From NCBI GenBank assembly GCA_020427635.1, contig JAGQOH010000003.1, positions 1-64,000 of the forward strand: DNA of 64,000 bases. Reading direction: 5' to 3'. Both the position numbers and the translations under genes were made by a program. The stretch comes from Phycisphaerales bacterium (lineage in GTDB: Bacteria; Planctomycetota; Phycisphaerae; Phycisphaerales; UBA1924). Under the pieces are notes generated by a model. That model was not told where the DNA came from. It did no database searches and worked only from the letters and a program-made list of their open reading frames with translations. Below are positions 10,241 to 28,243 of the stretch, piece by piece; the first letter of the stretch is position 1, and each line of letters starts with the position of its first letter.

Positions 10241-11578
10241 ATGAGTCAGACCAAGTGCCTCTCTCTGTTCGCGGGCGTCGCGGCGTCACTCTCGGCCGCT
10301 AGCGTCACGTTGGCAGATTCTCAGTCGTGGACCGAGTCCGGCATGAACGCCGACGAAGTTCGCGCCATCGTCTCCGAGATGCTCGCTGATGCGGACAACC
10401 GCTCGAGCCTTCTCCAGTCGGGAAGTGCGGGCCATGATGGCAATCACTTCTACCTCGCGGGCTCGGGCTTCAAGCTCACCGTTGGGGGTCAGATCCAGTT
10501 CCGCTACATCGCCAACTTTGGCGACGATGGCGGCATCCGTGGCGACAGCTTCGAGTCCGGCTTCCAGACCCGTCGCACCCGCCTCGAGTTCGGCGGCGAA
10601 GCCTGGGGTGACTGGGGCTACTTCGTGCAGGGTGACTTCGGCACGGGCGGCGGCTTCATGCTGCTCGACGGCTGGGTCTCCCGTTCGCTGGACAACGGCT
10701 GGGGCCTCCGCTGGGGTCAGTTCAAGCTGCCCTTCCTGCGTGAAGAGCTCGTGAGCGACAAGCGTCAGCTCGCTGCTGACCGTTCGTTCACGAACGATGT
10801 GTTCACCATGGGCCGCGCCCAGGGCATCGAGCTGCAGTGGGAGGGTGACGATTGGCGCTTTGCCTTCGCGTTCTCCGATGGTGGCGGCTCGCTGAACACC
10901 GACATCACCGCGAACAAGGTGATCGGCGCCACGTATGACCCGGTTTCTTCCGCGCTCACGGGCTTTGCGCTCTCGGGCGGCGAAGCTGAGTACGCCCTCA
11001 CGGGTCGCGCTGAGTGGAAGTGGGCCGGCAACTGGAGCGATTTCGACGACTTCACCGCCAATGCCAACGAGGAGTACTCGGGCATGGTCGGCGCTGCCCT
11101 CCACTGGGAAGGTGGCGAGGCCGGTTCGTTCGACTCCGTTGGCGCTCCGATCAACGTCGACTACACGCTGTTCGCGTGGACGGTTGACGCTTCGGTCGAG
11201 GGCAACGGTTGGAACCTCTTCGGCGCGTATGTCGGCACCCAGCTGGATACCGACGACTTCGCGGATGACGTCACCGACCACGGCTTTGTCGTGCAGGGTG
11301 GCGTCTTGATTCCCGACAGCGATTGGGAGCTCTTCGCCCGCTGGGATGCCGTCCTTCCGGACGGTGATCGCGCCGGCGACGATGCGTTCAATACGCTGAC
11401 GCTCGGCACGAACTATTACCTGAATGGCCATGCTGCGAAGTTCACCTTCGACGTTCAGTGGTTCTTCGACGAGGGCGCGATGAACGACCTCGCCAGCACG
11501 AACACGAGCGTTGGCTACATCTTCGACGACCAGGACGGGCAGGTCGCCCTCCGCGGTCAGTTCCAGCTGCTCTTCTGA
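10241..11578 (+). CDS. Outer-membrane porin, phosphate-selective OprP/OprO-like
   Basis: A 445-residue protein with a signal peptide (MSQTKCLSLF to the LADS cleavage region). Then comes a short helical stretch (about 35-60, possibly a periplasmic coiled coil), then a long beta-rich region with alternating aromatic and glycine residues starting FKLTVGGQIQFRYIANF. The pattern RTRLEFGGEAWGDWGYFVQ and the terminal aromatic strand FQLLF are typical of the OprP/OprO porin family, which forms outer-membrane channels for anions. The substrate cannot be decided here. The ATG at 10241 follows AAGGAG by 8 bp. The gene is monocistronic with its own terminator. Confidence 0.85.
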   Translation: MSQTKCLSLFAGVAASLSAASVTLADSQSWTESGMNADEVRAIVSEMLADADNRSSLLQSGSAGHDGNHFYLAGSGFKLTVGGQIQFRYIANFGDDGGIRGDSFESGFQTRRTRLEFGGEAWGDWGYFVQGDFGTGGGFMLLDGWVSRSLDNGWGLRWGQFKLPFLREELVSDKRQLAADRSFTNDVFTMGRAQGIELQWEGDDWRFAFAFSDGGGSLNTDITANKVIGATYDPVSSALTGFALSGGEAEYALTGRAEWKWAGNWSDFDDFTANANEEYSGMVGAALHWEGGEAGSFDSVGAPINVDYTLFAWTVDASVEGNGWNLFGAYVGTQLDTDDFADDVTDHGFVVQGGVLIPDSDWELFARWDAVLPDGDRAGDDAFNTLTLGTNYYLNGHAAKFTFDVQWFFDEGAMNDLASTNTSVGYIFDDQDGQVALRGQFQLLF

Positions 11579-11620
11579 GTTCGCGGGACTTCGAACGAGT
11601 CGAACAAAACGCAAACACCG

Positions 11621-11648
11621 CCGCCCAGGTTCGCCTGGGCGGTTTTTT
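11621..11648 (+). terminator. Rho-independent terminator after porin
   Basis: The arms CCGCCCAGG and CCTGGGCGG form a perfect 9-bp stem with a 4-base loop, followed directly by six T residues. Confidence 0.9.
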
Positions 11649-11756
11649 ATGCGCCATGTGAGGGGAAATCCCTGGTCCGATTTCCCCTTCCAAACGCCCC
11701 AAACTTCCGATATCATGCAGCCTCGCCCTCTTCTGGGGGCGGAGGGAGAGGGATGT

Positions 11757-12554
11757 ATGTGTGGACGCAATCTTGGGGTGATTGCCTGCGCGGTCGCAAT
11801 GCTTATCGCGCCGGCGACTGCGCTGGGTCAGCAGTTCTCGATTGGCGGCATTGACGCCTCTGACGGTGGGGTCGCGGGCGGCGCCATTGGCACCGGCATC
11901 GACATTGTCGGCGGCACGGTCTATCAGAACGCATTCCAAACTCCAGGGGCGATCGGCGAGCCCAACCAGGTCTTCATCGGGGTCGTCCCCGACCTCGTGT
12001 ACGACTCGTACCTCACTGTTGATAGTGGGCCCGTGGAGGCGGCGCCGGGCTACGACGGTTCGGGTATCGGGACGGCCTCTGAAGCTCCGGGCTCAATGGG
12101 GTTCACGGCGAACAGCTATCGAGGCCTGTGGTTCTTTGCGGGTCCATTCCAAAACGCTTTTGCAGTCGACAAGCCTGGTTTTGGGCCGGGCTATCAACTC
12201 TTCCTTGGGCGCATCACACACACGGGCTCGATGCAGGGCCGCATCCAGGTCGCGTTTGCCGAGCCGGGCGATACGAACTTCAGCTACATCGTTGGCGACA
12301 TCATTGAGCCTGCGGAGTTTGGGATTAGTGCGGCCGGGACGATTACAGAGAACAACGATGGCGCCCCGTTGGGCATGACCGCCAACGGCTACGCCATGGC
12401 CTTCATCAAGAAGGAGTTCCAGGTCGACATTGAAGGCACGACATACACGGTGAGTGACATCTATCTGCAGTCACTCAATGTGGTGCCTTCGCCGGGCGCT
12501 GCAGCGCCATTGGCGCTCATGGGCTTGGCGGTCGGGCGTCGTCGGCGTCGGTGA
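11757..12554 (+). CDS. PEP-CTERM-like exported protein, paralog 1
   Basis: A 265-residue exported protein, first of six paralogs in 11.7-19.1 kb. After a signal peptide ending near ALGQQ it shows the family core: FSIGGIDASDGG, GTGIDIVGGTVYQNAF, YDSYLTVDSGPV, GLWFFAGPF, LFLGRITHTG and YTVSDIYLQ. The end is VVPSPG, a hydrophobic helix and RRRRR, the three-part tail of exosortase substrates, but with Ser in place of the Glu of PEP. The ATG at 11757 is chosen because a purine-rich GGAGGGAGAGGG lies just upstream. The function is unknown; a cell-envelope or matrix location is inferred from the tail. Confidence 0.85.
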   Translation: MCGRNLGVIACAVAMLIAPATALGQQFSIGGIDASDGGVAGGAIGTGIDIVGGTVYQNAFQTPGAIGEPNQVFIGVVPDLVYDSYLTVDSGPVEAAPGYDGSGIGTASEAPGSMGFTANSYRGLWFFAGPFQNAFAVDKPGFGPGYQLFLGRITHTGSMQGRIQVAFAEPGDTNFSYIVGDIIEPAEFGISAAGTITENNDGAPLGMTANGYAMAFIKKEFQVDIEGTTYTVSDIYLQSLNVVPSPGAAAPLALMGLAVGRRRRR

Positions 12555-12582
12555 GATCGAGTCTGGAGTTCGTTGGATGAGG

Positions 12583-12609
12583 CCGCCCGGGCAGACTCGG
12601 GCGGTTTTT
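12583..12609 (+). terminator. Rho-independent terminator after paralog 1
   Basis: CCGCCCG and CGGGCGG form a 7-bp stem around an 8-base loop, followed by TTTTT. It separates paralog 1 from the downstream paralogs. Confidence 0.85.
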
Positions 12610-12742
12610 CTCATGTATGGTGGCGCGATCACCCAGTTGCTCCTGGGCACCGGAATCCCCAACTTTCCGGTTGGCCGGGTGGAAGGCATGATGTAAGGTT
12701 CCATAAGGAGGTCGAAAGGCCTCGCACAGGGGAGCCCACATC

Positions 12743-13522
12743 ATGAAGACGCGAGAGACCCGATTCGCATTGGCTGTTGTGGTGGCGGCGTGTGTAGTGG
12801 CATCGCCAACCTTGGCTCGTCCAAGTTTCTCGATCGGTGCGGTGGACGCTGCGGACGGCATGGTGGCCGGCAGTCGGCCCGGCACGGGGATCGACTTGGC
12901 TGGTGGTGTGTTTTTCCAGGTGGAGGATCCGGGCCCGCCGTGGGTGCCGCCGCCGCCCTTCCCGGTGCACGCGGAGTTTGACAGCTATGTGACGCTTGGC
13001 AGCGGGCCATGGGAGCCGGGGAGTTTCAATCCGCCGATCGATCCGGTCGAGACCGGCCCTGGGTTCTCCGATTCGAACTATCGGGGCGGCTGGTATGTCT
13101 CGGGGCCGTTCGTCGATGCGTTCGAGGCGATCGACAAGCCAGGTGTCAGTTGGCAGCTTTTCCTTGGGCGGTTCACGCACACGGGTAATTTGTCGGGGCG
13201 GGTGGCGCTGGCGCTCGCAGAGGAAGGCGCTGCCGGGTTCCGGACGGTCATGGGCGACATCGTCACGCCCAGTGAAGTGAACGGCGGGCAGGGTTGGATC
13301 ACGGAGGATGTCAACGGCGCGGCGCTGATTGGGCCGCAGCTGACGGATGAGGTGTACGCATTCGTGATCAAGGAGTTCGAGCAGGAGATCGAGGGCGTGA
13401 CATACACAGTGAGTGACTTGTACATCCAGTCGCTCGCGCCTGTGCCGAGCCCGGGGGGCGTTGGGGTGTGCGCGGTGTGCGGCGTGTGTGCGCTGCGGCG
13501 GCGCATCAGGAGCGCGCCATGA
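12743..13522 (+). CDS. PEP-CTERM-like exported protein, paralog 2
   Basis: A 259-residue paralog with a signal peptide (MKTRETRFALAVVVAACVVA...) and the core motifs FSIGAVDAADGMVAG, GTGIDLAGGVFFQ, FDSYVTLGSGP, LFLGRFTHTG and YTVSDLYIQ. The C-terminal tail PVPSPGG is followed by a Cys-containing hydrophobic stretch and a basic run interrupted as RRRIRSAP, so its sorting tail looks degenerate. Its upstream region carries a weaker version of the block seen before paralogs 5 and 6 (GTTGGCCGG at 12670, GGAGGTC at 12707, GCACAGGGGAG near 12725). Its stop codon overlaps the next start as ATGA, indicating translational coupling. Confidence 0.82.
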   Translation: MKTRETRFALAVVVAACVVASPTLARPSFSIGAVDAADGMVAGSRPGTGIDLAGGVFFQVEDPGPPWVPPPPFPVHAEFDSYVTLGSGPWEPGSFNPPIDPVETGPGFSDSNYRGGWYVSGPFVDAFEAIDKPGVSWQLFLGRFTHTGNLSGRVALALAEEGAAGFRTVMGDIVTPSEVNGGQGWITEDVNGAALIGPQLTDEVYAFVIKEFEQEIEGVTYTVSDLYIQSLAPVPSPGGVGVCAVCGVCALRRRIRSAP

Positions 13523-14298
13523 AACTCATTGCAAGCCTTTGTGTCATTGGCGCCAGCGCGCCTGTGTGTCTGGCTACGGCGTTTTCGATCGGCGCGATTG
13601 ATGCGTCGGACGGCACTGTCGTCGGCGGGCGACCGGGGACGGGGATCGACATTGTCGGTGGGATGATTTACCAGAACGCATTTGCGTCGCCAAGTGCGGT
13701 GGCTGAGCCGAACGCAGCGTTTCTCGTCTTTGAACCCAACCTGGAGTTCGATTCCTATCTCACCGTTGACAGCGCTCCCGTTGGGACGTTCTATAGCGGC
13801 CAGGACGTTGCCGCGGCGAACGAGATCCCCGGGTCGCCGGGTTTTGGCGCGTCGAGCTATCGCGGCGGGTGGTTCGTGGCTGGCCCGTTTGTGAATGCAT
13901 TTCATTCAGACGGAGAGCCCGGCACCGAATGGCAGTTGTTCATCGGGCGGATCACGCACACGGGCGCATTGTCAGGGCGATTGGCGGTCGCCATCGCCGA
14001 GGAGTTTTCGCCAGGGTTCACGACGATCGAGGGCGACATCGTTTCGTGGGCGGAACTGGCTCCAGGAAATGGCATCATTACGCACGATGTCAACGGCGTG
14101 CGGCTCATCAAGAACGCGCTCAATCCCTATGACGGCTACGCGTTCGTGAAGAAGGAGCAGCAGGTCGACATCGGCGGGACCACATACACCGTGACCGATC
14201 TGTATGTGCAAGAGGGGTTCTGGATCCCCGGGCCTGGGGCGGCGGGTGCGTTGGCACTGGCGGGGTTTGGGCTCGCCGCGAGGCGGCGGCGGCGCTGA
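13519..14298 (+). CDS. PEP-CTERM-like exported protein, paralog 3
   Basis: A 259-residue paralog. The ATG at 13519 overlaps the stop of paralog 2 (ATGA), which fixes the start and shows an operon. The signal peptide ends near CLATA. Core motifs are FSIGAIDASDGTVVG, GTGIDIVGGMIYQNAF, FDSYLTVDSAPVG, GGWFVAGPF, LFIGRITHTGALSG and YTVTDLYVQ. The tail is WIPGPG, a hydrophobic helix and RRRRR, so here Gly occupies the Glu position of PEP. The function is unknown. Confidence 0.85.
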   Translation: MKLIASLCVIGASAPVCLATAFSIGAIDASDGTVVGGRPGTGIDIVGGMIYQNAFASPSAVAEPNAAFLVFEPNLEFDSYLTVDSAPVGTFYSGQDVAAANEIPGSPGFGASSYRGGWFVAGPFVNAFHSDGEPGTEWQLFIGRITHTGALSGRLAVAIAEEFSPGFTTIEGDIVSWAELAPGNGIITHDVNGVRLIKNALNPYDGYAFVKKEQQVDIGGTTYTVTDLYVQEGFWIPGPGAAGALALAGFGLAARRRRR

Positions 14299-14312
14299 GG
14301 GAGGGAGGGCAC

Positions 14313-15086
14313 ATGAAGATGATCGCTGCGATGGCCGTGCTGGGGCTGGCCGGGAGCGCAGGCGCGCAGCACTTTTCGATTAGCAGAGTCGACGGCTCAA
14401 ATGGCTTGATCGATGGTGGAATGCCCGGCACCGGCTTCGATGTCATCAGCGGAGAGTTTTCGTTCGGAGGCACCTTCGGTAGCGAGCCAAGCCAAGCTCA
14501 ACTCGATGCTCAGCCGAACCTCGCGTATCTCAGCTATGTAACGATCGATCATGGACCGGTCGAGGTGTCGCCTGGATACGACGGTTCGAACGTTGGTTCA
14601 CCCACCGTGCTCGTCGCTTCGGGTGGCGCTGGAACAACAAACGATCGCTTTCGCGGTCTTTGGTCGCTGTCCGGGATGTTCGTTGATTCTGTTTCAGTGA
14701 ACAAGCCCGGGTTTGGTGCAGGGGAGGAGTTGTTCCTGGGCAGGATTTGCTACACCGGGATTTTTTTTGATGGCCGGCTCGCCATCACAATTGCTGAGGG
14801 GTTGAGTCCAACCAACGGTATTAGGATTGTTGGCGATGTTGTCGCAGAACAGGACATTGTCGAAGGACTCGGTTGGATCGACAGTGACGAATTCGGCAAT
14901 CCACTTCAAATCGCGTCAACCGAATATCGGTATGTCATTGTCCGAAAGAGCTTCCAGACAAACGTCAACGGTACAGATATCACCGTGAGCGATATCTATC
15001 TCCAATCACTTCGTGTCGTACCGACGCCCGCAACCTTCAGCCTGTTCGCATTTGGAGGCTTCGCGAGCACGCGCCGTCGTCGTTAG
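14313..15086 (+). CDS. PEP-CTERM-like exported protein, paralog 4 (divergent)
   Basis: A 257-residue paralog in the same operon, 14 bp after paralog 3, with a GGGAGGGAGGGC ribosome site. It has a signal peptide ending near AGAQ and keeps the core in altered form: [42 protein letters not shown] and ITVSDIYLQ. The tail is [16 protein letters not shown] then RRRR. Its coding sequence is visibly richer in A and T than its neighbours, and its divergence suggests either relaxed constraint or a separate origin. The stop TAG shares four bases (TTAG) with the stop of the convergent acs gene. Confidence 0.82.
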
Positions 15087-17299: not shown

Positions 17300-18016
17300 T
17301 CAGCGACGACGACGGCGCACCGCCGCAACACCGCTCACGCCGAGCATTGCCATCGCACCGGGGGTGGGAACCACACCCTGCTGCAGATAGATGTCGCTCA
17401 CCGTGTAGTCGGTGCCGCCAATGTTGACCGTCGACTCGCGCACGATCCAGGTGTAGCTCTCTTCGAGCGAGCTGGACATGGTGTCGCTGTCGAACGTCGC
17501 GCCGAGGGCCGAGCCCACGGTGCGCGTGGTCAGGTTGTCTTCGGAGATCGTCGTGCCGAGATACCCGGTCAACGTTCCGGTGTGGGTGATCCGGGCGACG
17601 AAGAGCTCATGGAGCGTCGTCGACGGATTCATCACCGAAGCGGTGAAGGGACCGGACACGAACCAGGCGCCGCTGACTGACGATGCGCCGAAGCCCACCG
17701 ACCCAGGCACCCAGCCGGCGCCGGGCACGCCCGAGCCGTCATAGCCCGGTGCCGGGGTCACCGGCGCGGTGTCAACGGTCACATAGCTGTCGTATTGCAG
17801 TTCCGGCGCAACGCCCATGAACGCTTGGTTGGGCTCGAAGTCCGTACCAAAGGCGTTCTGGTAGATGGTTCCGCCAACCACCGCCAGGTTGGCAAGTGGA
17901 TCGGAACCGGTCACACCGCCGGCGTCAATTGCGCCAAGCGTAAATCCATCCGCAGCGAGCGCTGAGCCCGCTGAGGCCAACACCATGATGGTGGCAAGTG
18001 GCACACGTGCCCTCAT
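17300..18016 (-). CDS. PEP-CTERM-like exported protein, paralog 5
   Basis: A 238-residue paralog. The signal peptide MRARVPLATIMVLASAGSA is followed by FTLGAIDAGGVTG, VVGGTIYQNAFG, YDSYVTVDTAPV, GAWFVSGPF, LFVARITHTGTLTG and YTVSDIYLQ. The tail is VVPTPGAMAMLGVSGVAAV then RRRRR. The ATG at 18016 is preferred over an in-frame start 39 bp upstream, because the conserved leader GCACAGGGAGTCAG ends 4 bp before it and the signal peptide begins here. The gene has its own upstream block and terminator, so it is likely monocistronic. Confidence 0.85.
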   Translation of the reverse strand: MRARVPLATIMVLASAGSALAADGFTLGAIDAGGVTGSDPLANLAVVGGTIYQNAFGTDFEPNQAFMGVAPELQYDSYVTVDTAPVTPAPGYDGSGVPGAGWVPGSVGFGASSVSGAWFVSGPFTASVMNPSTTLHELFVARITHTGTLTGYLGTTISEDNLTTRTVGSALGATFDSDTMSSSLEESYTWIVRESTVNIGGTDYTVSDIYLQQGVVPTPGAMAMLGVSGVAAVRRRRR

Positions 18017-18020
18017 GTTT

Positions 18021-18106
18021 CTGACTCCCTGTGCAAGCTTTGGGCTTTCACCCAAAGAGTGGTACTCCAGTCCCTAGCTTGCGCCCATATGTACATGCTG
18101 TCCAAC
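18021..18106 (-). promoter_or_regulatory. Phased upstream block of paralog 5
   Basis: Read toward the gene: GTTGGACAG (18106-18098), 29 bp, GGAGTAC (18068-18062), a hairpin with arms CTTTGGG and CCCAAAG, then GCACAGGGAGTCAG (18034-18021) just before the start. The same order and the same 29-bp spacing occur before paralog 6 although the intervening bases differ. TTGGAC could act as a -35 element; GGGAG serves as the ribosome site. Confidence 0.6.
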
Positions 18107-18200
18107 GGTTTGTGACGTTTTTTCCGCCTGCGTGAAGCTGGGGGAAGCTGCGGGCGGTGCGGGCCGTCGGTGTGCGCGCCGACAGTGCGCGCAAAAAACA

Positions 18201-18228
18201 AAAACCGGCGAGGCCTAGGCCCCGCCGG
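18201..18228 (-). terminator. Rho-independent terminator after paralog 6
   Basis: Read leftward, CCGGCGGGGCC pairs with GGCCTCGCCGG (one mismatch) and is followed by a T-rich run including TTTT and TTTTTT. Confidence 0.85.
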
Positions 18229-18280
18229 CTTTCTTGATCAATCTGTCTGCAATCGAGTCAGCCCCAAAGGCTGATCTGGA

Positions 18281-19057
18281 TTAGCGGCGGCGACGAATCG
18301 CGCCCAGACCAGCGACGCCCAGCAGACCCAGCGCGCCCGGCGTCGGGACCAGCGTGACGTTCTGCAGGTAGAGGTCGGTGACGGTGTAGGTCGTGCTGCC
18401 GACCACCTGCTGGAACTCCTTGGCGACCCAGGCGTAGCCCGAGTTGGGGTCAAGGATGTTCTTCACGAGGCGGTTGCCGTTCACGTCATGCGTGATGAGG
18501 CCACCAGCCTGGGGATCCGTGACGATGTCGCCCTCGATGGTCTTGAAGCCGGCCGAGTTCTCCTCAGCGATGGCGACCGAGAGCTTGCCGGACAGCGTGC
18601 CGGTGTGCGTGATGCGGCCGACGAACAGCTCATAGCTGACATTGGGCTTGTCGGAGACGGCGAAGGCGGGCACGAAGTTGCCGCTCAAGAACCAGCCACC
18701 GCGGAAGTCGCTGGCCGAGAAGCCAATCGTGCCGGGGACCGGACCGACCGCAGCCACGTCGCCACCAGCATAGCTGGCGGTGACCGGACCCGAGTCGATG
18801 GTCAGGTAGCTGTCGAACTCAAGCGACGGGGCCAGCGGGATGAACGCCGCGTTGGGCTCGCCGGTGGCACCGGGGGTGCCGAAGCTGTCCTGGTAAATCG
18901 TGCCGCCGGTGATGTCGATGCCGGTGCCGGGACGGCTGCCGGCGAAGGTGCCGTTGCCAGCGTCAATGGCGCCGATCGAGAAATTACCTGCCGAAGCGGC
19001 CCCAGCAAGGGCGAGCATGGCAGCTGCGCAAACAAAGCTCTTCATCTTGTTCTCCAT
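18281..19057 (-). CDS. PEP-CTERM-like exported protein, paralog 6
   Basis: A 258-residue paralog. The signal peptide (MENKMKSFVCAAAMLALAGA...) is followed by FSIGAIDAGNGTFAG, GTGIDITGGTIYQDSFG, FDSYLTIDSGPVT, GGWFLSGNF, LFVGRITHTGTLSG and YTVTDLYLQ. The tail is LVPTPGALGLLGVAGLGAI then RRRR, the most regular of the six. An internal ATG four codons in (MKSFVC) is an alternative start. It is closest to paralog 3 by eye. A conserved leader block lies upstream and an intrinsic terminator downstream, so it is probably transcribed alone. Confidence 0.87.
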   Translation of the reverse strand: MENKMKSFVCAAAMLALAGAASAGNFSIGAIDAGNGTFAGSRPGTGIDITGGTIYQDSFGTPGATGEPNAAFIPLAPSLEFDSYLTIDSGPVTASYAGGDVAAVGPVPGTIGFSASDFRGGWFLSGNFVPAFAVSDKPNVSYELFVGRITHTGTLSGKLSVAIAEENSAGFKTIEGDIVTDPQAGGLITHDVNGNRLVKNILDPNSGYAWVAKEFQQVVGSTTYTVTDLYLQNVTLVPTPGALGLLGVAGLGAIRRRR

Positions 19058-19660: not shown

Positions 19661-19696
19661 TAGGAACTAGGCACTGGCAGTAGGCACTAGGACTAG
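19661..19696. repeat. CTAGG-rich short repeat
   Basis: A string of degenerate units (ctaggaactaggcac, gtaggcactaggact) fills the gap between two convergent genes. A related string lies at 54375-54405. Confidence 0.45.
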
Positions 19697-20337
19697 TAGC
19701 AGATGTTGCCAAAGTTGAAGAGCAGCAACTGCAGGTCGTCGAGGTTTGTGAAGCCATCGCCATTCACATCGCCATCGATGAGCTGAGCGCCCGGGCCCGT
19801 GCCGAAGCCAAAGAGCAAGAGTTGCAGGTCATCGAGATTGACCTGGCCATCGCTGTTGACGTCGGCTTCGCAGAAGATGGCGACATAGGCGTTGGCGTCA
19901 TCGAGATTGATCCAGCCGACGTTCTCGCCCCAGGCGAAGCCTTTGAGTCGGCCGTTCTCGATGCGCGCGGGATTGGGCGGTGACGCCAATGCGCCGCCAT
20001 CGAAGTTGACCCAGCCGGCGTTTTCCATCCATGCGTAGCCTTCGAGGAAGCCGCCAACGACGTTCACGCCATAGTTCGTGTTGTTGGTGTTGGCGTAGGG
20101 GCCGCTGCCGTTGCCGACGTTCAACCAGCCGATGTTCTCGCACCAGACATAGCCGGCGAGATGGTCACTCAAGACTTCGACGCCTTGGTTCCCTGCGGGC
20201 GTGCCGGCATCGCGCCAGTTCATAAAGCCGATGTTTTCGCCCCAGGACCATTTGTTGGTGGGGGAGATGTTGGTGGCGCCGAGCGCGGCGCTTGCGGCGA
20301 CGAGGAGGGCGATCGTGATTGTTGTCTTGGCGTGCAT
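19693..20337 (-). CDS. Secreted WxENxGW-repeat protein with dockerin-like tail
   Basis: A 214-residue exported protein, last gene of the minus-strand beta-helix operon. The start ATG is 26 bp after the previous stop, with AGAGAG upstream. After the signal peptide (MHAKTTITIALLVAASAALG) come five repeats built around WGENIGFMNW, WCENIGWLNV, WMENAGWVNF and WGENVGWINL. The C-terminus has two dockerin-like units, ADVNSDGQVNLDDLQLLLF and GDVNGDGFTNLDDLQLLLF. The repeats probably form a small beta-propeller-like or repeat fold. The context suggests it works with the beta-helix proteins outside the cell. Confidence 0.83.
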   Translation of the reverse strand: MHAKTTITIALLVAASAALGATNISPTNKWSWGENIGFMNWRDAGTPAGNQGVEVLSDHLAGYVWCENIGWLNVGNGSGPYANTNNTNYGVNVVGGFLEGYAWMENAGWVNFDGGALASPPNPARIENGRLKGFAWGENVGWINLDDANAYVAIFCEADVNSDGQVNLDDLQLLLFGFGTGPGAQLIDGDVNGDGFTNLDDLQLLLFNFGNICY

Positions 20338-20363: not shown

Positions 20364-21581
20364 TCAATAGCTGAAATTCGCGTTTGCGTCAGTGCTGCCC
20401 AGCGTCGATGCCACGGATCCGCTGCCGTTTACTGCAGCGGTTGCGGCACCGACGCGATTGATGATGGGACCATAGATGTTGTTGGCCGCGATGACCCAGT
20501 TGGTTGTGTTGGCGGCACAGGTGTTGCGATAGATGATGCCGCCCGAGGACGTCACTTCAATACCGCGGTCGTTGTCGTTGCAATGGTTGTCTTCGATGCG
20601 CGTGTCACTGCCGCCTGCGACGATGCCCGCGCCATCGCCAGCTCCTGCGCCATTGCCAAAGCACGAGTTTCCAATCACCCGTGCGTCCGCGCCGACGATC
20701 TCAATCCCGTTGCCCGCGTTCGCATTGGATGTGCAGTTGAGGACGGTGGATGAGAACGCGACGACGATGCCATCTCCGAAGTTGGTCGAGGTCACACAGT
20801 CAACGATGCGGCAGTTACTTTGCACATTGATGCCGGAGTCGGTGTTGAAGTTCGCAGTGCAGCCGCGAACGATCGTGCGCGCACTGCCAAGGATGCCTGC
20901 GAGATTGTTCGTTGAGCAGCAGGCCTCGACAACCGAATCGTTCGAGACAATGATGCCAACATTGGGGTGGTCGGTCGCGTTGCAGCCCGTGATCGTGCTG
21001 CGATTTCCAGAGACGATGCCCGCCTGATTGGCCTGCGCCGTGCAACCCGAGATCACAGCATCGCCCTCAGCCTGGATGCCGTTCATGCCGTTGCTGTTGG
21101 CGACACAATCCCGAATCCGTGCAGCTCGTCCGACGACGATTCCGCCGGCGCCATTTCGGGAGCTGTGCACATCTTCGATGAGGTAGCCGACTGTGAGGCC
21201 CCCGCTTGAGAAATCAATCCCGCTGTCACCCCACTTGGTCAGCGTGCCGTTGCGGACGGTGATGTTGTCATGCAAGCCATCGGTGCGCAGGCCCGAGAGT
21301 GAGCCAGCAACCCCGGTGAGATTGAACCCCATGAGGTCGATCACGACGTTGTTCGCTGCGACCTCAATGCCGGCCTTCCCAACAACGCCAAGGACGTTTG
21401 CCTCGAGGTAGTAGCTACCAGCCCGATCGATCCGAAAGATGCTGTCTGCATCGCCCGGGGTGTTGGTCGCATTGATTGCAATGCGCGGTTCGGGCCCGGG
21501 CGTTGGCGCAATGGGCCCGGCAGGCGGGTCAAGCGGCCCAGCGAGGGCGGCGGTTGCGATGGCGAGTGTGATCAGGTGCAT
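20364..21581 (-). CDS. Secreted parallel beta-helix protein, array member 7
   Basis: A 405-residue protein, seventh in transcription order of the seven-gene array. The signal peptide (MHLITLAIATAALAG) is followed by the conserved N-cap PLDPPAGPIAPTPGPEPRI, then FRIDRAGSYYLEANVLG and IEVAANNVVIDLMGFNLTG. About ten right-handed helix turns follow with the periodic NGIxxxxxxxVxxCTAxxN pattern (e.g. NNVGIIVSNDSVVEAC-like turns). It ends GSTDANANFSY. The fold is that of pectate-lyase/NosD-like proteins. No catalytic residues could be assigned, so carbohydrate binding, lyase activity and a purely structural role all remain possible. Confidence 0.88.
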   Translation of the reverse strand: MHLITLAIATAALAGPLDPPAGPIAPTPGPEPRIAINATNTPGDADSIFRIDRAGSYYLEANVLGVVGKAGIEVAANNVVIDLMGFNLTGVAGSLSGLRTDGLHDNITVRNGTLTKWGDSGIDFSSGGLTVGYLIEDVHSSRNGAGGIVVGRAARIRDCVANSNGMNGIQAEGDAVISGCTAQANQAGIVSGNRSTITGCNATDHPNVGIIVSNDSVVEACCSTNNLAGILGSARTIVRGCTANFNTDSGINVQSNCRIVDCVTSTNFGDGIVVAFSSTVLNCTSNANAGNGIEIVGADARVIGNSCFGNGAGAGDGAGIVAGGSDTRIEDNHCNDNDRGIEVTSSGGIIYRNTCAANTTNWVIAANNIYGPIINRVGAATAAVNGSGSVASTLGSTDANANFSY

Positions 21582-21594
21582 GAATCAGGTGTCC

Positions 21595-22704
21595 TCAATA
21601 CGTGAAGTTGGCCCATGGATCGGTTGTGCCCATACCCGTACCGCCGCTGTTGCCGAGGATCGCTCCACTGGGTGGAGCCACGACAATGACGCCGACTTTA
21701 TTGGCGAGGAAGATGTCCCAGTTTGTCGTGTTGTCAGAGCACGTATTCTTGATGATGACGTTGCCTGCGGCGTCGACGTCGATCCCTCGATCCGCTTCGA
21801 TGCAATTGTTGCCCTCGATGCGATTGCCCCCACCCGTCACGTGGATGTTGGCACCGTCAGCCGTCATAAACCCATTTGTGTTGCACTGGTTGTCGGTGAT
21901 CACGCAATCCCTTACTGCCAGGATGCCGTCGCCGTCGTTGGAGCCCGCCTCGCAGTGCGTGACAGAACTCTGAATCACATCGAAACCATTGCCCTCGTTG
22001 AACGATGCCGCGCAATGAGACATTTGGGTACCGGCGCCATCAAATCCGTGTGCCGCGTTGCTCACCGAGGTGCAACCGGTCACGGTGCACAGGGTCGCCT
22101 GAAAGCCATTGCCCAAGTTCTCGAGAGCGGCACAATCACTGATCGAAACGCCCCCGAAGGCGAAAATGCCGTGCTGTCCGTTGCGCGTTGCGGTGCAGCG
22201 ACTCACACTGCCAGCGCCACGAAGAAAGATCCCGTGTCCGCCATTGTCTGTCGAGGATACGCCCTCGACAATGATGCCGCGGGCAGAGTTCTCTGAGAGG
22301 TCGATCCCGTGAGAGCCCCAATTGCGCACCGAACCATTCCGTACGCAGATGTTTGACAGACTAGAGATACTGATCGTGATCCCGTTGAGCGAGCCAGCCT
22401 TGCCCAATACCTCGAAGCCATTGAGGTCAATCGTTACGCCGCTCGCGGCGATTTCAATACCGTGCCTCGCGTTCTCGCCAGCAACCTTTCCAGTGAGGTA
22501 GTAGCTGCCTGGCTGGGTGATTCGGTAGACCGTTGTTGCGGTGCCTGGCGTATTGGTCTGGTTGATTGGCACCCGCGGCTCGACCTGATCGAGCGTCTTC
22601 ATCGTTGATGCAACTGGGCCGGGGGGCGGATTCAATGGACCCGCAACCGCAGTTGCTGCAGTGCCGAGGGCCATCGTCATCCATAGTGCCATGTACTTTC
22701 GCAT
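21595..22704 (-). CDS. Secreted parallel beta-helix protein, array member 6
   Basis: A 369-residue member, 12 bp after the preceding stop, with a GAAGGA ribosome site. Its N-cap is the most divergent of the array (GPLNPPPGPVASTMKTLDQ), with an insertion before EPRVPINQTNTPGTA. The common strands YRITQPGSYYLTGKVAG, IEIAASGVTIDLNGFEVLG and NICVRNGSVRNWGSHGIDL follow, then eight or so helix turns with Cys in the xNCxx position. It ends GTTDPWANFTY. The hydrophobic N-terminus (MRKYMALWMTMALGTAATAVAG) predicts export. Confidence 0.87.
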   Translation of the reverse strand: MRKYMALWMTMALGTAATAVAGPLNPPPGPVASTMKTLDQVEPRVPINQTNTPGTATTVYRITQPGSYYLTGKVAGENARHGIEIAASGVTIDLNGFEVLGKAGSLNGITISISSLSNICVRNGSVRNWGSHGIDLSENSARGIIVEGVSSTDNGGHGIFLRGAGSVSRCTATRNGQHGIFAFGGVSISDCAALENLGNGFQATLCTVTGCTSVSNAAHGFDGAGTQMSHCAASFNEGNGFDVIQSSVTHCEAGSNDGDGILAVRDCVITDNQCNTNGFMTADGANIHVTGGGNRIEGNNCIEADRGIDVDAAGNVIIKNTCSDNTTNWDIFLANKVGVIVVAPPSGAILGNSGGTGMGTTDPWANFTY

Positions 22705-22716
22705 AGTCCTTCTCTC

Positions 22717-23727
22717 TCAATACGTGAAGTTTGCAGTGTGATCGACGGTGCCCAGTGTGCTGACGGCGGAATCACCATTCACGGAGTTGGTTGTCGCCCC
22801 TGCTCGATTGACAATGTTGCTGTAGAAATTGTTCGCAACGAAGATCCAATTCGTTGTGTTCGCAGAGCATGTGTTCTTGATAATGAAATTGCCTTCGCCG
22901 TTGACGCGCACGCCGTAATCATTGCCGACACAGTTGTTATCTTCAATGCGGTTATCCGAGCTGTTGACGAGAATTCCGGCGCCGGTGGTTGCAAGAGCAC
23001 CGTTGCCACTGCAGGTATTGCCCGTGACGGTGCAGCCGCCATTCACAGAAATGCCATGCGACGAATTGCCGATGGCCATGCAGTTGCGCACGATGGCTGC
23101 CGCGGCATCGATGCCGTTGCCGCCGTTGTATGACGCAACGCAATCGCGCACGATGCACGTCAGATTCGCTTTGATGCCCGTCCCGTTGTTGCGAATTGCC
23201 GTGCAACCTACCGCGCTGCCCTCGTAGAATTCGATCCCTGCCTGGTTGTTGTTGAAGGCCTGGCAATCCCTGAGGTCGGCGCCAAAGACGCGGAATCCAT
23301 ACAACGCGTTGTCGAACGACCGCACCTGATCCGCCAGCATACCAACGGTGTGCAGATCAACACCATCCTCGCCCCACGTCTTGATCACACCGTTGCGCAG
23401 GGTCAGGTTGAAGACATTGAGCTGCGTGGAGCCGATGCCATCGAGAGAGCCCGGCACACCCTCGAGCGAGAAGCCCATGAGGTCGATCGAGACCTCGTCC
23501 GCGTTGACGAGGATGCCGGTCTTGCCCGCTTCACCAAGGATGTTGCCTTCGAGGTAATAGCTCCCCGGTGCGCTGATGATAAACGACGCAGTCGCACTCC
23601 CGGGCGTATTCACCGCATTGATCGCAATCCGCGGCTCGGGTCCTGGTGTTGGCGCAATCGGACCCGCGGGCGGATCGAGCGGGCCCGCAAGGGCGGCTGC
23701 GGCAATGACAAGTGAAATCGTGCTCAT
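22717..23727 (-). CDS. Secreted parallel beta-helix protein, array member 5
   Basis: A 336-residue member. The ATG is 9 bp after the previous stop, with AAGGGT upstream. The signal peptide (MSTISLVIAAAALAG) is followed by the N-cap PLDPPAGPIAPTPGPEPRI, FIISAPGSYYLEGNILG and VSIDLMGFSLEGVPGSLDG. It has fewer helix turns than members 3 and 7, so the array varies mainly in the number of central repeats. It ends GTVDHTANFTY. Confidence 0.87.
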   Translation of the reverse strand: MSTISLVIAAAALAGPLDPPAGPIAPTPGPEPRIAINAVNTPGSATASFIISAPGSYYLEGNILGEAGKTGILVNADEVSIDLMGFSLEGVPGSLDGIGSTQLNVFNLTLRNGVIKTWGEDGVDLHTVGMLADQVRSFDNALYGFRVFGADLRDCQAFNNNQAGIEFYEGSAVGCTAIRNNGTGIKANLTCIVRDCVASYNGGNGIDAAAAIVRNCMAIGNSSHGISVNGGCTVTGNTCSGNGALATTGAGILVNSSDNRIEDNNCVGNDYGVRVNGEGNFIIKNTCSANTTNWIFVANNFYSNIVNRAGATTNSVNGDSAVSTLGTVDHTANFTY

Positions 23728-23736
23728 GATACCCTT

Positions 23737-24729
23737 CTAGTACGTGAAATTCGCGTAGGGATCGGTCGTCGACATTGTTGAGTTCGCGTTTCCGTTTCCA
23801 TTGATCGGGGTGTGCGCCGCGGTGATACGGTTGACGATTGGGCCAATTACGTTGTTTGCGGCGATTTGCCATGCAGCGGTGTGATCGGTGCAGGTATTGC
23901 GAATGATCACGTTGTCAGCGCCATCGACGCGGATGCCTCGGTCGGTCGATGAGCACTGGTTGCCCTCGATCCGGTTCCGTGTGCCGTGCATGTAGATTCC
24001 GGTCGCCGAATTGGCAAACCCGTTGCCATGACAGTTGTTGTTGAGAACGAGGTTGTAGTTGGTCCCCGAGATTTGCGCGCCGGTGTTGTCCGAGGCGGTG
24101 CATCCGATGATGGTGCTGGCATCACCGATAGCGATCCCATCGACGCCGTTTCCTGACGCAGTGCAATCTGTGATGTGGGCTTTCGTTACGACGATGCCAG
24201 TGCCGTCATTCCGATAGGCGGTGCAATCTTTGATGATCATCGCGCGCTCAGCCGAGGGCGTATTGATTCCGTCCCCATCACAGTCGGCCACGTGAACACC
24301 GCTGATCATGCCACTTGCAACACCAAGTGCGCTAAGGTCGATGCCGGTATCGCGCCAGTTGCGCACAGTGCCGTTCTTGACGACGATCCCGGTCTTTCCG
24401 CCACCGCCGGTCACAATGATCCCGCTGATCGGTCCGTTGATGCCGCCGCTCAGGACAAAGCCGTTGAGGTCGATCGTCACGCCATGCAACGCCGCGATCT
24501 CAATGCCGTTCTTCGCGCCGTTGACTGTGATGTTGGCTTCGAGGTAGTAGCTTCCTGGCTGCGTGATCTTGAACTGGCTGGGCGTTGCATCGTTGTCCCC
24601 AGGCGTATTGACTGCATTGATTGCAATCCGCGGCTCGGGGCCGGGCGTTGGCGTAATTGATCCGGCGGGCGGATCAAGCGGCCCAGCCAGCGCGGTCGCG
24701 GCAATGGCAATCGAAATCGCGTGCATCAT
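23737..24729 (-). CDS. Secreted parallel beta-helix protein, array member 4
   Basis: A 330-residue member, the shortest of the array. Two adjacent ATG codons (24729 and 24726) follow a GAGGAACGAGAG ribosome site; either may start translation. The signal peptide is MMHAISIAIAATALAG. The N-cap is PLDPPAGSITPTPGPEPRI, then FKITQPGSYYLEANITV, VTIDLNGFVLSGGINGP and VVKNGTVRNWRDTGIDL. It ends STTDPYANFTY. The gap to the preceding gene is 11 bp. Confidence 0.87.
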   Translation of the reverse strand: MMHAISIAIAATALAGPLDPPAGSITPTPGPEPRIAINAVNTPGDNDATPSQFKITQPGSYYLEANITVNGAKNGIEIAALHGVTIDLNGFVLSGGINGPISGIIVTGGGGKTGIVVKNGTVRNWRDTGIDLSALGVASGMISGVHVADCDGDGINTPSAERAMIIKDCTAYRNDGTGIVVTKAHITDCTASGNGVDGIAIGDASTIIGCTASDNTGAQISGTNYNLVLNNNCHGNGFANSATGIYMHGTRNRIEGNQCSSTDRGIRVDGADNVIIRNTCTDHTAAWQIAANNVIGPIVNRITAAHTPINGNGNANSTMSTTDPYANFTY

Positions 24730-24740
24730 GCTCTCGTTCC

Positions 24741-25958
24741 TCAATGACTGAAGTTCGCGTTTGGGTCAGTGGTGTTCAGCGTCGACGCCAGTGGCCCGTT
24801 TCCCGAAAAGATGGCCATGCTCCCGCTCGGGTTGACGATTTCGCCGACAAAGTTGCCGCCAAACAACTCAAAGTTCGACGTATTGCTGCCGCAGATGTTC
24901 TTGACGATGACGCACCTGTTGGTCCCGTCGACGTGGATGCCGCGGTCATTGTTCGTACACAGATTGCCCTCGATACGGCAGTCAGGCCCAGCGACACGAA
25001 TCCCAGCACCGTCGCCCGCGCCGAAGCCGTTCAGGTCGCAGGTGTTGTTCATGATGGTCGAACTTCCCTGCACATAGATCCCGTCAAGCGTGTTGTGGAG
25101 TACCGTGCACCCGGTGATCACCATCTTCTGCGTTCCGGAGATCCCGAACTCGCCGCTGCGCTGCGCAATGCAATCAACAATTCTGCAGCCCTCTGTGCCA
25201 GCAATGCCTTGGACGTTGCTCTGGCTCGCCGTGCAATGGCTCACCGTGCTGTACGACTGAGCCTCGATGCCAATATCGTTGCCGTTCGCAGCGCAATCAC
25301 TGATGGTCGATTCGCTGCCGGAGCGAATGCCGTAGAACGAGTTGTTGTTCGACGAGCAATTGGAAATCGACGCCCTCAGCGTTGCAAAGATCCCGCTTCG
25401 GTTCATGTGCGCCGAGCAATGTGCAATCGCAGCGCCCTCATCACAACGAAGCCCATCCTGCGTATTGTTCGACGCTGTGCAGTTCTGAACCACAGCCGAC
25501 TTACCAAGGATCATGCCGTTCAAGGCATTTCCAGATACATGCACATCTTCAATTAGCACACCCGTGCCGATGCCGGCAGTGACCAAATCAATCCCGCTGC
25601 CATCCCAATCACTGATCACGCCGTTGCGGATGGTGATGTTGTCGATTGCGCCGCCGCTCGTGGCGATGCCCGACAACACGCCCGGCAATCCAAAGACGTT
25701 GTAGCCCATCAGATCAATCGTCACGTTGCTCGCGGCGATCTCGATACCAACCTTGCCGTTGTCACCCTTCAGGTTCTGCGTGAGGAAGTAGCTGCCCGGC
25801 TTTGAGATGTGATACACGCTGTCAGCATCGCCGGTTGTATTGAGTTGATTGATTGCGATTCGCGGCTCGGGCCCGGGCGTCGGCGCAATTGAACCTGCCG
25901 GCGGATTCAATGGCCCAGCGAGTGTCGCGGCGGCAAGCGCCAGAGATATTCCGTGCAT
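24741..25958 (-). CDS. Secreted parallel beta-helix protein, array member 3
   Basis: A 405-residue member. Two adjacent ATG codons (25961, 25958) follow GGAGGAG; 25958 gives the usual MH start and better spacing. The signal peptide (MHGISLALAAATLAG) leads into PLNPPAGSIAPTPGPEPRI, YHISKPGSYFLTQNLKG and VTIDLMGYNVFGLPGVLSG. About eleven helix turns follow. It ends NTTDPNANFSH, the only member with His rather than Tyr at the C-terminus. Confidence 0.87.
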   Translation of the reverse strand: MHGISLALAAATLAGPLNPPAGSIAPTPGPEPRIAINQLNTTGDADSVYHISKPGSYFLTQNLKGDNGKVGIEIAASNVTIDLMGYNVFGLPGVLSGIATSGGAIDNITIRNGVISDWDGSGIDLVTAGIGTGVLIEDVHVSGNALNGMILGKSAVVQNCTASNNTQDGLRCDEGAAIAHCSAHMNRSGIFATLRASISNCSSNNNSFYGIRSGSESTISDCAANGNDIGIEAQSYSTVSHCTASQSNVQGIAGTEGCRIVDCIAQRSGEFGISGTQKMVITGCTVLHNTLDGIYVQGSSTIMNNTCDLNGFGAGDGAGIRVAGPDCRIEGNLCTNNDRGIHVDGTNRCVIVKNICGSNTSNFELFGGNFVGEIVNPSGSMAIFSGNGPLASTLNTTDPNANFSH

Positions 25959-25968
25959 CATCTCCTCC

Positions 25969-27108
25969 TCAATACGTGAAGTTGGCGTTCGGATGCGTAC
26001 TGCCAACACTACCGACAAATGTGTCGCCCATCACTGCTGCACCGATTCCTGCCGCATCGCCTGCAAGCACAATGGGCCCGACTGCGTTGTTTGCGGCGAG
26101 ATTCCAATTGGTCGTATTCCCCGAACAGCTGTTGCGAACGATGATGTTGCCGCCGAGATCCACCTTGATACCCGTTCCATTCGCAACACAGTTGTTGCCT
26201 TCAATGCGGGTGTCCAGGGCGCTGACGAGGATGCCGGGCCCGGTGTTCGCGTGGCACATGTTGTCCTGCAGATTGCTTTGGCCACCGACGCGGATGCCGC
26301 CAGCGGTATTGGCACGAGCGGCGCAATCACTTACCACGCCAGAGCCGCTGCAGTTGATGCCATAGCCACCGTTGAGAAACGCCGAGCACGCAGTCACGAC
26401 GCCACCAACATTCACAGCGATGCCCGCATTGCCATTGCTGTACGCAGTCGTGTTGGTCACCGTGCAGTTTGTTGCACCAATAAAACCGCTGACATCGTTG
26501 TCATACGCAACGCAGTCAGTCACTGTGCAGGCGTCGGCCAGATTGAACCCGTTCGCCGTATTCTCGCGGGATGTGCAATGACTCAGTGCGCATCCGTCCC
26601 CCAAGTCGAATCCGTCCTCACTGTTGTTGAACGCTGTACACCGGGTCACAACAGCATTGTTCGAAATGCGGAAGCCGTCGCCATTGTTGTTGCTTGATTG
26701 CACGTCTTTAATGATGCAGTTTCGCGCAAAGGTGAGGCGAATGCCATCGCTGAAGCAGAACGCAACCGAGCCGTTCCTGATCGTGATATTCGAGTGAAAA
26801 TTGGGGGAGGTGATCCCCTGCAATGAGCCGGACGCGGCGCCGCGCACTTCGAACCCGTTCAGGTCGAGGGTCACGCTGTCCGCTGCGATCTCAATGACCG
26901 ACTTGCCGACGGCGCCCGTGAGGTTGCCTTCGAGGTAGTAGCTCCCGTGCTGCACGATGCGATAGACGCTGTCGGCATCGCCCGGGGTGTTGGTGGCGTT
27001 GATCGCAATCCGAGGCTCGGGTCCGGGCGTCGGCGCGATGGGGCCTGCGGGTGGATCGAGCGGGCCGGCGAGGGTGGTGGTTGCAAGTGCAAGACAGATC
27101 AGGTGCAT
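25969..27108 (-). CDS. Secreted parallel beta-helix protein, array member 2
   Basis: A 379-residue member. The ATG is 13 bp after the preceding stop, with GGAG upstream. The signal peptide (MHLICLALATTTLAG) leads into PLDPPAGPIAPTPGPEPRI, YRIVQHGSYYLEGNLTG and VTLDLNGFEVRGAASGSLQG. The central turns are very regular (NGFNLADACTVTDC, SGFIGATNCTVTN), with Cys-rich ladders. It ends GSTHPNANFTY. Confidence 0.87.
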   Translation of the reverse strand: MHLICLALATTTLAGPLDPPAGPIAPTPGPEPRIAINATNTPGDADSVYRIVQHGSYYLEGNLTGAVGKSVIEIAADSVTLDLNGFEVRGAASGSLQGITSPNFHSNITIRNGSVAFCFSDGIRLTFARNCIIKDVQSSNNNGDGFRISNNAVVTRCTAFNNSEDGFDLGDGCALSHCTSRENTANGFNLADACTVTDCVAYDNDVSGFIGATNCTVTNTTAYSNGNAGIAVNVGGVVTACSAFLNGGYGINCSGSGVVSDCAARANTAGGIRVGGQSNLQDNMCHANTGPGILVSALDTRIEGNNCVANGTGIKVDLGGNIIVRNSCSGNTTNWNLAANNAVGPIVLAGDAAGIGAAVMGDTFVGSVGSTHPNANFTY

Positions 27109-27121
27109 TCGCTTCTACTCC

Positions 27122-28243
27122 TCAATAACTGAAATTCGCATTCGGATCGATTGAACCGGGCGGGGTGCCGCCGGCGGCACCGAAGATTGCAGGGGCGGTC
27201 GCGCCGACGACCACGAAGCACACGTTCCCCGCGGCTATGTCCCAATTCGTCGCATTTCCCGAGCAACTGTTGCGAACGATGAAGTTCGACGCTGCATCAA
27301 CCTTGATGCCCAGGTCGCCCCCAGCGCAGTTGTTTGACTCGATGCGGTTGTCGGTGCCCGTGGCGTGGACGCCGGCACCGGTTCCGCCGAGGTATCCACT
27401 TTGCTGGCAGGCATTGCCCACGATGCGGCAGCTCGCTTCGAGCAGGATGCCGTCAAGGCGATTGGCAAAGAGGGAACAACTCTCCGCAGTGCAGCCAGTG
27501 CCGAGGGCCATGCCGTTGCCAAGATTGAGTGAGGCGGAGCAATGCGAAATGGTGGACCCGCCTGCGTTGCCAAGGGAGGTACCGAGATTGAAGCCGTCGC
27601 CGTCATTCTGATCGGCAGTGCAGTTGGTGACTGCACCGGAATGGCTCACTACGATGCCGTTACCGCTGTTGTGTTCGGCAGAGCAGTTAGCAACAGCGCC
27701 TGTGAAGGTGAAAAGGATCCCATTGCCCGTGTTGTCGTAGACGGCGCAGTCGGTGATCGTGCCTGAGAGGGCAGCAATGCCGTGCGAACCATTGTTGCTC
27801 GAACGGACGCGGTCAACGGCGCTGTTTCGACCGCCGAGCAAGACGCCAGCGCCGCCCCAGTCGCGCACCGACCCGTTCTGCACGCTTACGTTTGAATAGA
27901 TGGACGAGCCAACGCGAATTCCCTGCAAGGACTCCGGCACGCCAATGAGATCGAAGCCGTTGAGATCAATCGTCACGCCACTTGCAACGATCTCGATGCC
28001 ATGTTTGGCGGCTTCACCGGTGACGTTGCCTTCCAAGTAGTAACTCCCGGGCTGACCGATGTGAAACACACTGTCCGCATCGCCCGGCGTGTTGGTGGCG
28101 TTGATCGCAATCCGCGGTTCGGGGCCGGGGGTGGGCGCGATGAGGCCTGCGGGTGGATCGAGCGGCCCGGCGAAGAGCCACCCTGTGGCCACAATGACCA
28201 ACGCGGCGCCTGCGGGCGCCCAACGGCTCCAGCGGCTTGTCAT
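27122..28243 (-). CDS. Secreted parallel beta-helix protein, array member 1
   Basis: A 373-residue protein, first gene of the operon. A strong GGAGGAG ribosome site lies 8 bp before the ATG. Its N-terminus is longer and more basic (MTSRWSRWAPAGAALVIVAT...) than the others but ends in the same LFAG before PLDPPAGLIAPTPGPEPRI. Strands FHIGQPGSYYLEGNVTG, VTIDLNGFDLIGVPESLQG and VSVQNGSVRDWGGAGVLL follow, then the helix turns. It ends GSIDPNANFSY. Its promoter must lie in the 168-bp gap before crcB. Confidence 0.87.
   Translation of the reverse strand: MTSRWSRWAPAGAALVIVATGWLFAGPLDPPAGLIAPTPGPEPRIAINATNTPGDADSVFHIGQPGSYYLEGNVTGEAAKHGIEIVASGVTIDLNGFDLIGVPESLQGIRVGSSIYSNVSVQNGSVRDWGGAGVLLGGRNSAVDRVRSSNNGSHGIAALSGTITDCAVYDNTGNGILFTFTGAVANCSAEHNSGNGIVVSHSGAVTNCTADQNDGDGFNLGTSLGNAGGSTISHCSASLNLGNGMALGTGCTAESCSLFANRLDGILLEASCRIVGNACQQSGYLGGTGAGVHATGTDNRIESNNCAGGDLGIKVDAASNFIVRNSCSGNATNWDIAAGNVCFVVVGATAPAIFGAAGGTPPGSIDPNANFSY

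Follow-up and report, generated by a model that had tools for sequence, protein, structure and literature searches.

Gene content of the locus and the partner gene

Seven orfs lie in a row on the minus strand at positions 20364-28243 of the window (the whole 64,000-nucleotide stretch of Phycisphaerales DNA that was analysed), and their products are paralogues of 330-406 residues predicted to be beta-helix proteins, hereafter called rods (Table 1). All seven orfs were present in the order and on the strand originally predicted. In protein alignments g2-g7 are 40-47% identical to g1, with conserved caps and variable coils. The intergenic gaps, counted from g1 to g7, measure 13, 7, 11, 9, 12 and 13 bp; the genes are as closely spaced as the original prediction had it, with a lower limit of 7 bp instead of 9 bp. 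For g3, an alternative TTG start extends the orf to 26018 and produces an overlap with g2.

The rod genes had been taken for one operon of seven. A single apparent operon was found, including an eighth gene that had been missed, which is transcribed from the same strand 26 bp downstream of g7 and is hereafter called the partner. Among the rod genes, the Shine-Dalgarno-like GAGG of the next gene is usually overlapped by the preceding stop codon, which together with the gaps of 7-13 bp suggests translational coupling. A scan of the cluster's minus strand found neither a consensus promoter nor a terminator, which is weakly indicative of, and compatible with, a single operon. Computation supports the description of the locus as an apparent operon of eight genes, seven rods and the partner, and the conserved downstream partner with its dockerin is the most informative part of it.

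Table 1. Genes of the apparent operon, with coordinates in the window.
Gene	Coordinates	Strand	Length (aa)	Features	Basis
g1, beta-helix protein	27122..28243	-	373	first gene of the apparent operon; ordinary leader of ~25 aa	orf and alignment
g2, beta-helix protein	25969..27108	-	379	14-aa leader	orf, domain match and alignment
g3, beta-helix protein	24741..25961	-	406	ATG at 25961; short leader	orf, domain match and alignment
g4, beta-helix protein	23737..24729	-	330	shortest coil region; short leader	
g5, beta-helix protein	22717..23727	-	336	14-aa leader	
g6, beta-helix protein	21595..22704	-	369	KTLDQVEPR-type N-cap; ordinary leader; the one modelled	
g7, beta-helix protein	20364..21581	-	405	seventh and final rod gene; 14-aa leader	
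Partner	19693..20337	-		four W-x-E-N-x-G-W/F repeats between a signal peptide and a C-terminal two-loop dockerin	

The putative dockerin of the partner scores 20.7 bits with Pfam PF00404, just below the cut-off of 22.9, and gives a profile match to solved dockerins at E 4.7e-5. It has the two EF-hand-like loop-helix segments that define a type I dockerin, and two D-x-N-x-D-G-like loops are found in most of 20 partner homologues. When the fold of the W-E-N-G-W domain was compared with solved structures, the best match was hemophilin (Z 6.8), all matches had Z <8, and Foldseek gave E >0.1. The genome carries many dockerin-like tails; no match to cohesin (PF00963), and hence no cohesin-dockerin pair with its receptor in the same genome, was detected in this MAG, which is 92% complete. 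Cohesin was found in 14 of 163 relatives, including the sister species (G001), and its distribution does not track the rods and the partner. The receptor may possibly be a diverged cohesin-like protein.

Among 90 beta-helix clusters, 22 are immediately followed by the partner, and these come from 20 of the 43 genomes; additional adjacent cases occur at four loci (L154, L156, L157 and L151); in two clusters scored as having an upstream partner, the partner belongs to the preceding cluster. Most beta-helix clusters elsewhere have no adjacent partner, and none was found beside the other rod family members of the same genome, on contigs C37, C51 and C71. The repeat domain alone was used to search the 163 genomes of the GTDB family, since it keeps many other dockerins out, and it is present in 79 of them. 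Rods and partner occur together in 74 genomes, rods only in five, partner only in five and neither in 79, so that presence or absence is concordant in 153 of 163 genomes and discordant in ten. Fisher's test gives 1e-33, which overstates the evidence because the genomes are related and not independent, and the value indicates that the association is very strong but should not be taken as a probability. In the genera labelled g7, g215, g220, g15 and g3, rods and partner are gained or missing together. The linkage of rods and partner is thus supported by computation; direct contact between them is a conjecture.

Fold, leaders and residue conservation of the rods

One of the seven proteins, g6, was modelled with AlphaFold from a 63-member alignment. 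The model is a right-handed beta-helix with three strands per coil (mean pLDDT 93.4, pTM 0.90). Coil length is 21 residues in 560 of 676 spacings, and the coils carry ladders of Cys at position 0, Asn at position 5, Gly at position 9 and Ile or Phe at position 10, with a partial second Cys ladder at position 16. These coils are the central turns that had been predicted, correctly, to vary between copies. Outward coil positions are mostly small polar residues, and the outward side is different in every copy. The coils are preceded by a family N-cap (AGPLDPPAGPI..EPRIAINxTNTPG). The -DPNANFTY-like C-terminal end of g6 was modelled as a terminal strand with pLDDT ~93, and this confident placement makes it look like a cap and not a floppy sorting tag.

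Domain matches agree with the model, and the fold is supported by computation. Six of the seven rods score above the cut-off with TIGR03804 (para_beta_helix), and five do so with PF13229 (Beta_helix) or PF05048 (NosD), the NosD matches being to g2, g3 and g5. No family match to g1 is above the cut-off, and its membership is shown by alignment with the other six. The repeated coils of the g6 model and the TIGR03804 matches place the rods in the right-handed parallel beta-helix superfamily; among the Pfam and TIGR matches there is no family model spanning the whole rod protein.

The original prediction was of a shared signal peptide, N-cap and C-cap. Alignment bore out the shared caps, and the leaders proved to be of two kinds. 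Those of g1 and g6 are ordinary, with ~25 and 21 residues and R or K present, and those of g2, g3, g4, g5 and g7 are ~14-16 residues long with neither K nor R. For g2, g5 and g7 an upstream start is impossible, so the 14-residue leader is forced (for example MHLICLALATTTLA followed by GPL); the leaders of g3 and g4 are apparently similar to this type. Among 226 members checked, no other case of a forced leader as short as these was found. Most likely all seven rods are exported, judging from the leaders, and export is less certain for g2, g3, g4, g5 and g7 because their leaders are unusually short.

The solved structures nearest to the g6 model are AlgE epimerases (Z 33) and phage capsule depolymerases (Z 28-30), followed by NosD (Z 28) and the adhesin PfbA (Z 26). 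The first two would suit polysaccharide-active enzymes (epimerases, lyases or hydrolases), each rod having a substrate of its own, and the beta-helix fold is common among enzymes. This interpretation is unlikely in view of the residues themselves: the AlgE catalytic motif YGxDPHE, or YGxDPH[E/D], occurs in none of 256 members; no coil position has a fixed acid, base or aromatic residue; and in an alignment of 63 members the coils have no conserved charged residue, nearly invariant ones being limited to E22, R24 and D73 (N-cap region). Computation thus supports the description of the rods as having no obvious conserved active site, family-wide conservation being a measure to which copy-specific active sites would stay invisible. 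An identity as AlgE-like mannuronan C5-epimerase or alginate lyase was rejected on the same motif, the likeness being one of fold only. Phage origin as tailspikes was also rejected, with no phage record found by tblastn with g6, no PHROG found for g1 or g6, and fold matches only. Plasmid spread was rejected with one weak Halobaculum beta-helix as the sole match.

Copy number, recombination and selection

With a membership threshold of E <= 1e-20, rods are found in 79 of 163 genomes of the GTDB family, and strong members outside it are sporadic across the phylum. Copy number among relatives ranges from 0 to about 50: the sister species has a single rod gene with the partner orthologue downstream, arrays of 13, 12 and eight genes are found at L066, L067 and L080, and one genome (G023) has about 50 family members. 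The copy-number comparison called for by the original prediction therefore came out as variation and not as a fixed set of seven. The array had also been considered notable for its seven members, which it is not; larger ones occur commonly within the order, and seven is an ordinary size given that relatives carry 12, 13 or about 50.

Among the seven genes, identity at 4-fold sites is 0.43 in the N-cap, 0.34 in the coils and 0.38 in the C-cap, and chance identity by codon class is 0.28-0.41. Genes common to the window and the sister species are similarly worn (0.35-0.57). With 4-fold sites near chance and synonymous sites near saturation, the rod duplications at this locus are old. A test of monophyly of the seven gave an AU p of 0.625, from 117 columns with 59 of 86 forks unresolved.

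The single rod gene of the sister species has a g1-like head, signal peptide included, and its last 47 residues are identical to those of g5 at 43 of 47 positions, compared with at most 29 of 47 for any other pair. The gene is an old mosaic combining two members of the array, and it provides direct evidence that copies recombine. In five tandem genes of JADLFE (L073), DNA identity is 81-95% in the leader and N-cap and 50-64% in the coils. In three recent tandem copies of JAHBXI, the caps are near-identical and the length difference of 126 bp is exactly two coils. These sequence patterns support recombination between rod copies, and the mosaicism is supported by computation. Of the proposal that the seven expanded by unequal recombination, the recombination is thus sustained by the mosaic gene and the two-coil differences, and a recent expansion of the seven was rejected because 4-fold identity is near chance.

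Pooled over close orthologues in related genomes, dN/dS is 0.20 in the N-cap and coils and 0.11 in the C-cap, and within the coils it is 0.085 at inward and 0.25 at outward positions. Between close orthologues, by this measure, all rod regions are under purifying selection. Such values are difficult to reconcile with neutral tandem duplication, in which repetitive genes would multiply and drift without distinct roles; a copy number of 0 to about 50 between relatives is what neutral duplication would produce, but co-occurrence with the partner and seven orfs that are still open with synonymous sites near saturation make it a highly improbable account of the array.

A different pattern was obtained from copies c2 and c3 of JAHBXI. 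At outward coil positions dN is 0.504 and dS 0.175 (dN/dS about 2.9), with 53 nonsynonymous and eight synonymous differences (Fisher p 0.008), and dN was no greater than dS in a fraction of 0.0008 of 5000 codon bootstraps; dS in the caps is near 0.04. This was the only recent tandem set found, and it was chosen after looking, for its recency; the signal of outward-face diversification is suggestive, coming from one array selected for being recent. A further 20 arrays, mostly from genomes already sampled, yielded no other set of this kind.

Fast outward change of this kind, mosaic genes and similar caps might also be signs of antigenic or phage-receptor variation, in which coil swapping between copies would alter the surface. 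The seven genes are intact and have their own start codons, as silent cassettes would not, and at outward positions, fast in JAHBXI, change between close orthologues is constrained (dN/dS 0.25). A diversity-generating retroelement was rejected, no PF00078 reverse transcriptase having been found in this genome or in that of JAHBXI. Antigenic variation is accordingly a very improbable function of the array.

Proposed function and comparison with known systems

The interpretation preferred here, with a probability of about 0.45, is that the seven are non-catalytic rods that bind ligands, probably glycans, and act with the partner. Each rod combines a fixed N-cap, a stack of 21-residue coils held together by ladders of Cys, Asn and Gly-Ile in the interior, and a C-terminal cap strand, likewise fixed, with -DPNANFTY at its end. 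Together the rods would form a repertoire of extracytoplasmic binders, possibly with a different ligand for each copy, the ligand most likely being polysaccharide outside the cell. The partner would dock by its calcium-type dockerin onto a surface receptor. New rods would be generated when genes duplicate in tandem and copies recombine, and their outward faces would diverge quickly and then be kept.

The strongest rival is a structural matrix, which is doubtful. The rods would then build a surface layer, sheath or biofilm matrix that the partner anchors or cross-links, and the outward variation would mostly concern packing. Regular rods whose caps are fixed and in which no active site is obvious, encoded by many paralogues in one apparent operon with a dockerin partner, would suit such a role, and the fixed caps could equally serve as polymer interfaces. 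Two observations speak against a matrix: outward-face dN/dS is >1 in the recent JAHBXI duplicates, and there is free variation in the number of coils, to which a fixed lattice would be poorly suited.

If ligand-binding rods are assumed, a broader proposal can be made tentatively, as a possibility: a two-part extracellular system of Phycisphaerales, composed of expanded beta-helix binding rods and one dedicated W-E-N-G-W/dockerin partner, that evolves by tandem duplication, recombination via constant caps and diversification of the outer face. Planctomycetes have many beta-helix proteins, for most of which the name refers only to the fold, and the rod-partner link offers a concrete two-protein interaction and a handle on the function of the arrays. 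The JAHBXI pattern, if repeated in other genomes, would be a clear bacterial repertoire with a constant scaffold and a variable face.

The fold and the tandem arrays of beta-helix genes are of known kinds. To our knowledge, constant-cap and variable-coil arrays tied to a W-E-N-G-W/dockerin partner have not been described; a literature search of partial coverage retrieved no published description of the rod family or of such arrays with their partner.

The dockerin invites comparison with the 'planctosome' proposed from dockerin-bearing exported proteins of Nemodlikiaceae, a different group of planctomycetes (PMC6461901). In that cohesin/dockerin model there are peptidases and a cohesin adaptor, whereas the dockerin of this locus forms one protein with W-E-N-G-W repeats and the genome has no detectable Pfam cohesin. 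Chlamydial polymorphic membrane proteins (Pmps) are a multi-gene family of surface beta-helices with variable rung number (PMC10715098), and may be considered an analogy in manner of working only. Pmps have FxxN and GGA(I,V,L) motifs and a C-terminal barrel, in contrast to the 21-residue C/N/GI coil of the rods, which lack a barrel; identity with Pmps was rejected, as neither PF02415 nor an autotransporter barrel matched any of the seven rods or 63 family members.

The A-modules of AlgE4 and AlgE6 resemble the rods in fold (Z 33, rmsd 2.2 over 295 residues) at 16-17% sequence identity and differ in possessing YGxDPHE. NosD, a periplasmic copper-related protein with a nos context (NosF ATPase and NosY permease) and a role in N2O reductase maturation, resembles the rods through the Pfam matches to g2, g3 and g5 and through a fold that many beta-helices have. 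With the PF13229, TIGR03804 and PF05048 families the rods have in common the coil architecture and the Asn ladder, and they are set apart by an N-cap and a C-terminal -DPNANFTY strand of their own, by their occurrence in tandem arrays and by the W-E-N-G-W dockerin partner.

A second exported protein family and cohesin-like domains

Six paralogous exported proteins encoded beside the beta-helix array all match the same two places in the genome of the sister species (see table), and they form a second lineage-expanded family of surface proteins adjoining the array. The proteins at 17300 and 18281 end in arginine-rich, PEP/MYXO-CTERM-like tails, with weak family matches below the cut-off. Two cohesin-like domains were found in the sister genome, whereas none was detectable in the window's own genome.

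Coordinates of features in the window and in the sister genome (G001)
Feature	Location	Coordinates (strand)	Remark
Six paralogous exported proteins	Window	11511-15086 (+) and 17300-19057 (-)	Shared match sites in sister genome
Genes with putative short leaders (g2, g3, g4, g5 and g7)	Window	20364-27108 (-)	
Cohesin-like domain	G001, contig C9	38000-38272	E 8.6e-9
Cohesin-like domain	G001, contig C9	128479-128829	E 6.4e-4

Leaders and export

The putative leaders of five array genes are about 14-16 residues long and contain no lysine or arginine; the short leader is forced in g2, g5 and g7, and such a leader is absent from every other family member checked. In other genomes, the leaders of some family members (L070, L080, L090 and L113) are of the twin-arginine type (DRRALLAGIGG..., ESRRALLAGIGG...). 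Such leaders suggest that these proteins are folded in the cytoplasm and then exported, an order of events with which the many unpaired buried cysteines are consistent.

Family members elsewhere

In the window's own genome, a family gene is truncated at the end of contig C71 (L043) and at the start of contig C51 (L045). Because the two parts are complementary, covering model positions 4-37 and 37-363, the contigs may be neighbours, with a further small array. One relative (G023) has approximately 50 family members on contigs C14, C23 and C6 (L049-L056), in clusters that extend over tens of kilobases and use both strands; both of its partner genes stand apart from any recognised family member. 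Typical Phycisphaerales arrays with a partner gene also occur in records titled Dehalococcoidia (L069) and Leptolyngbya sp. PLA1 (L127), which look like mis-binned or mislabelled contigs.
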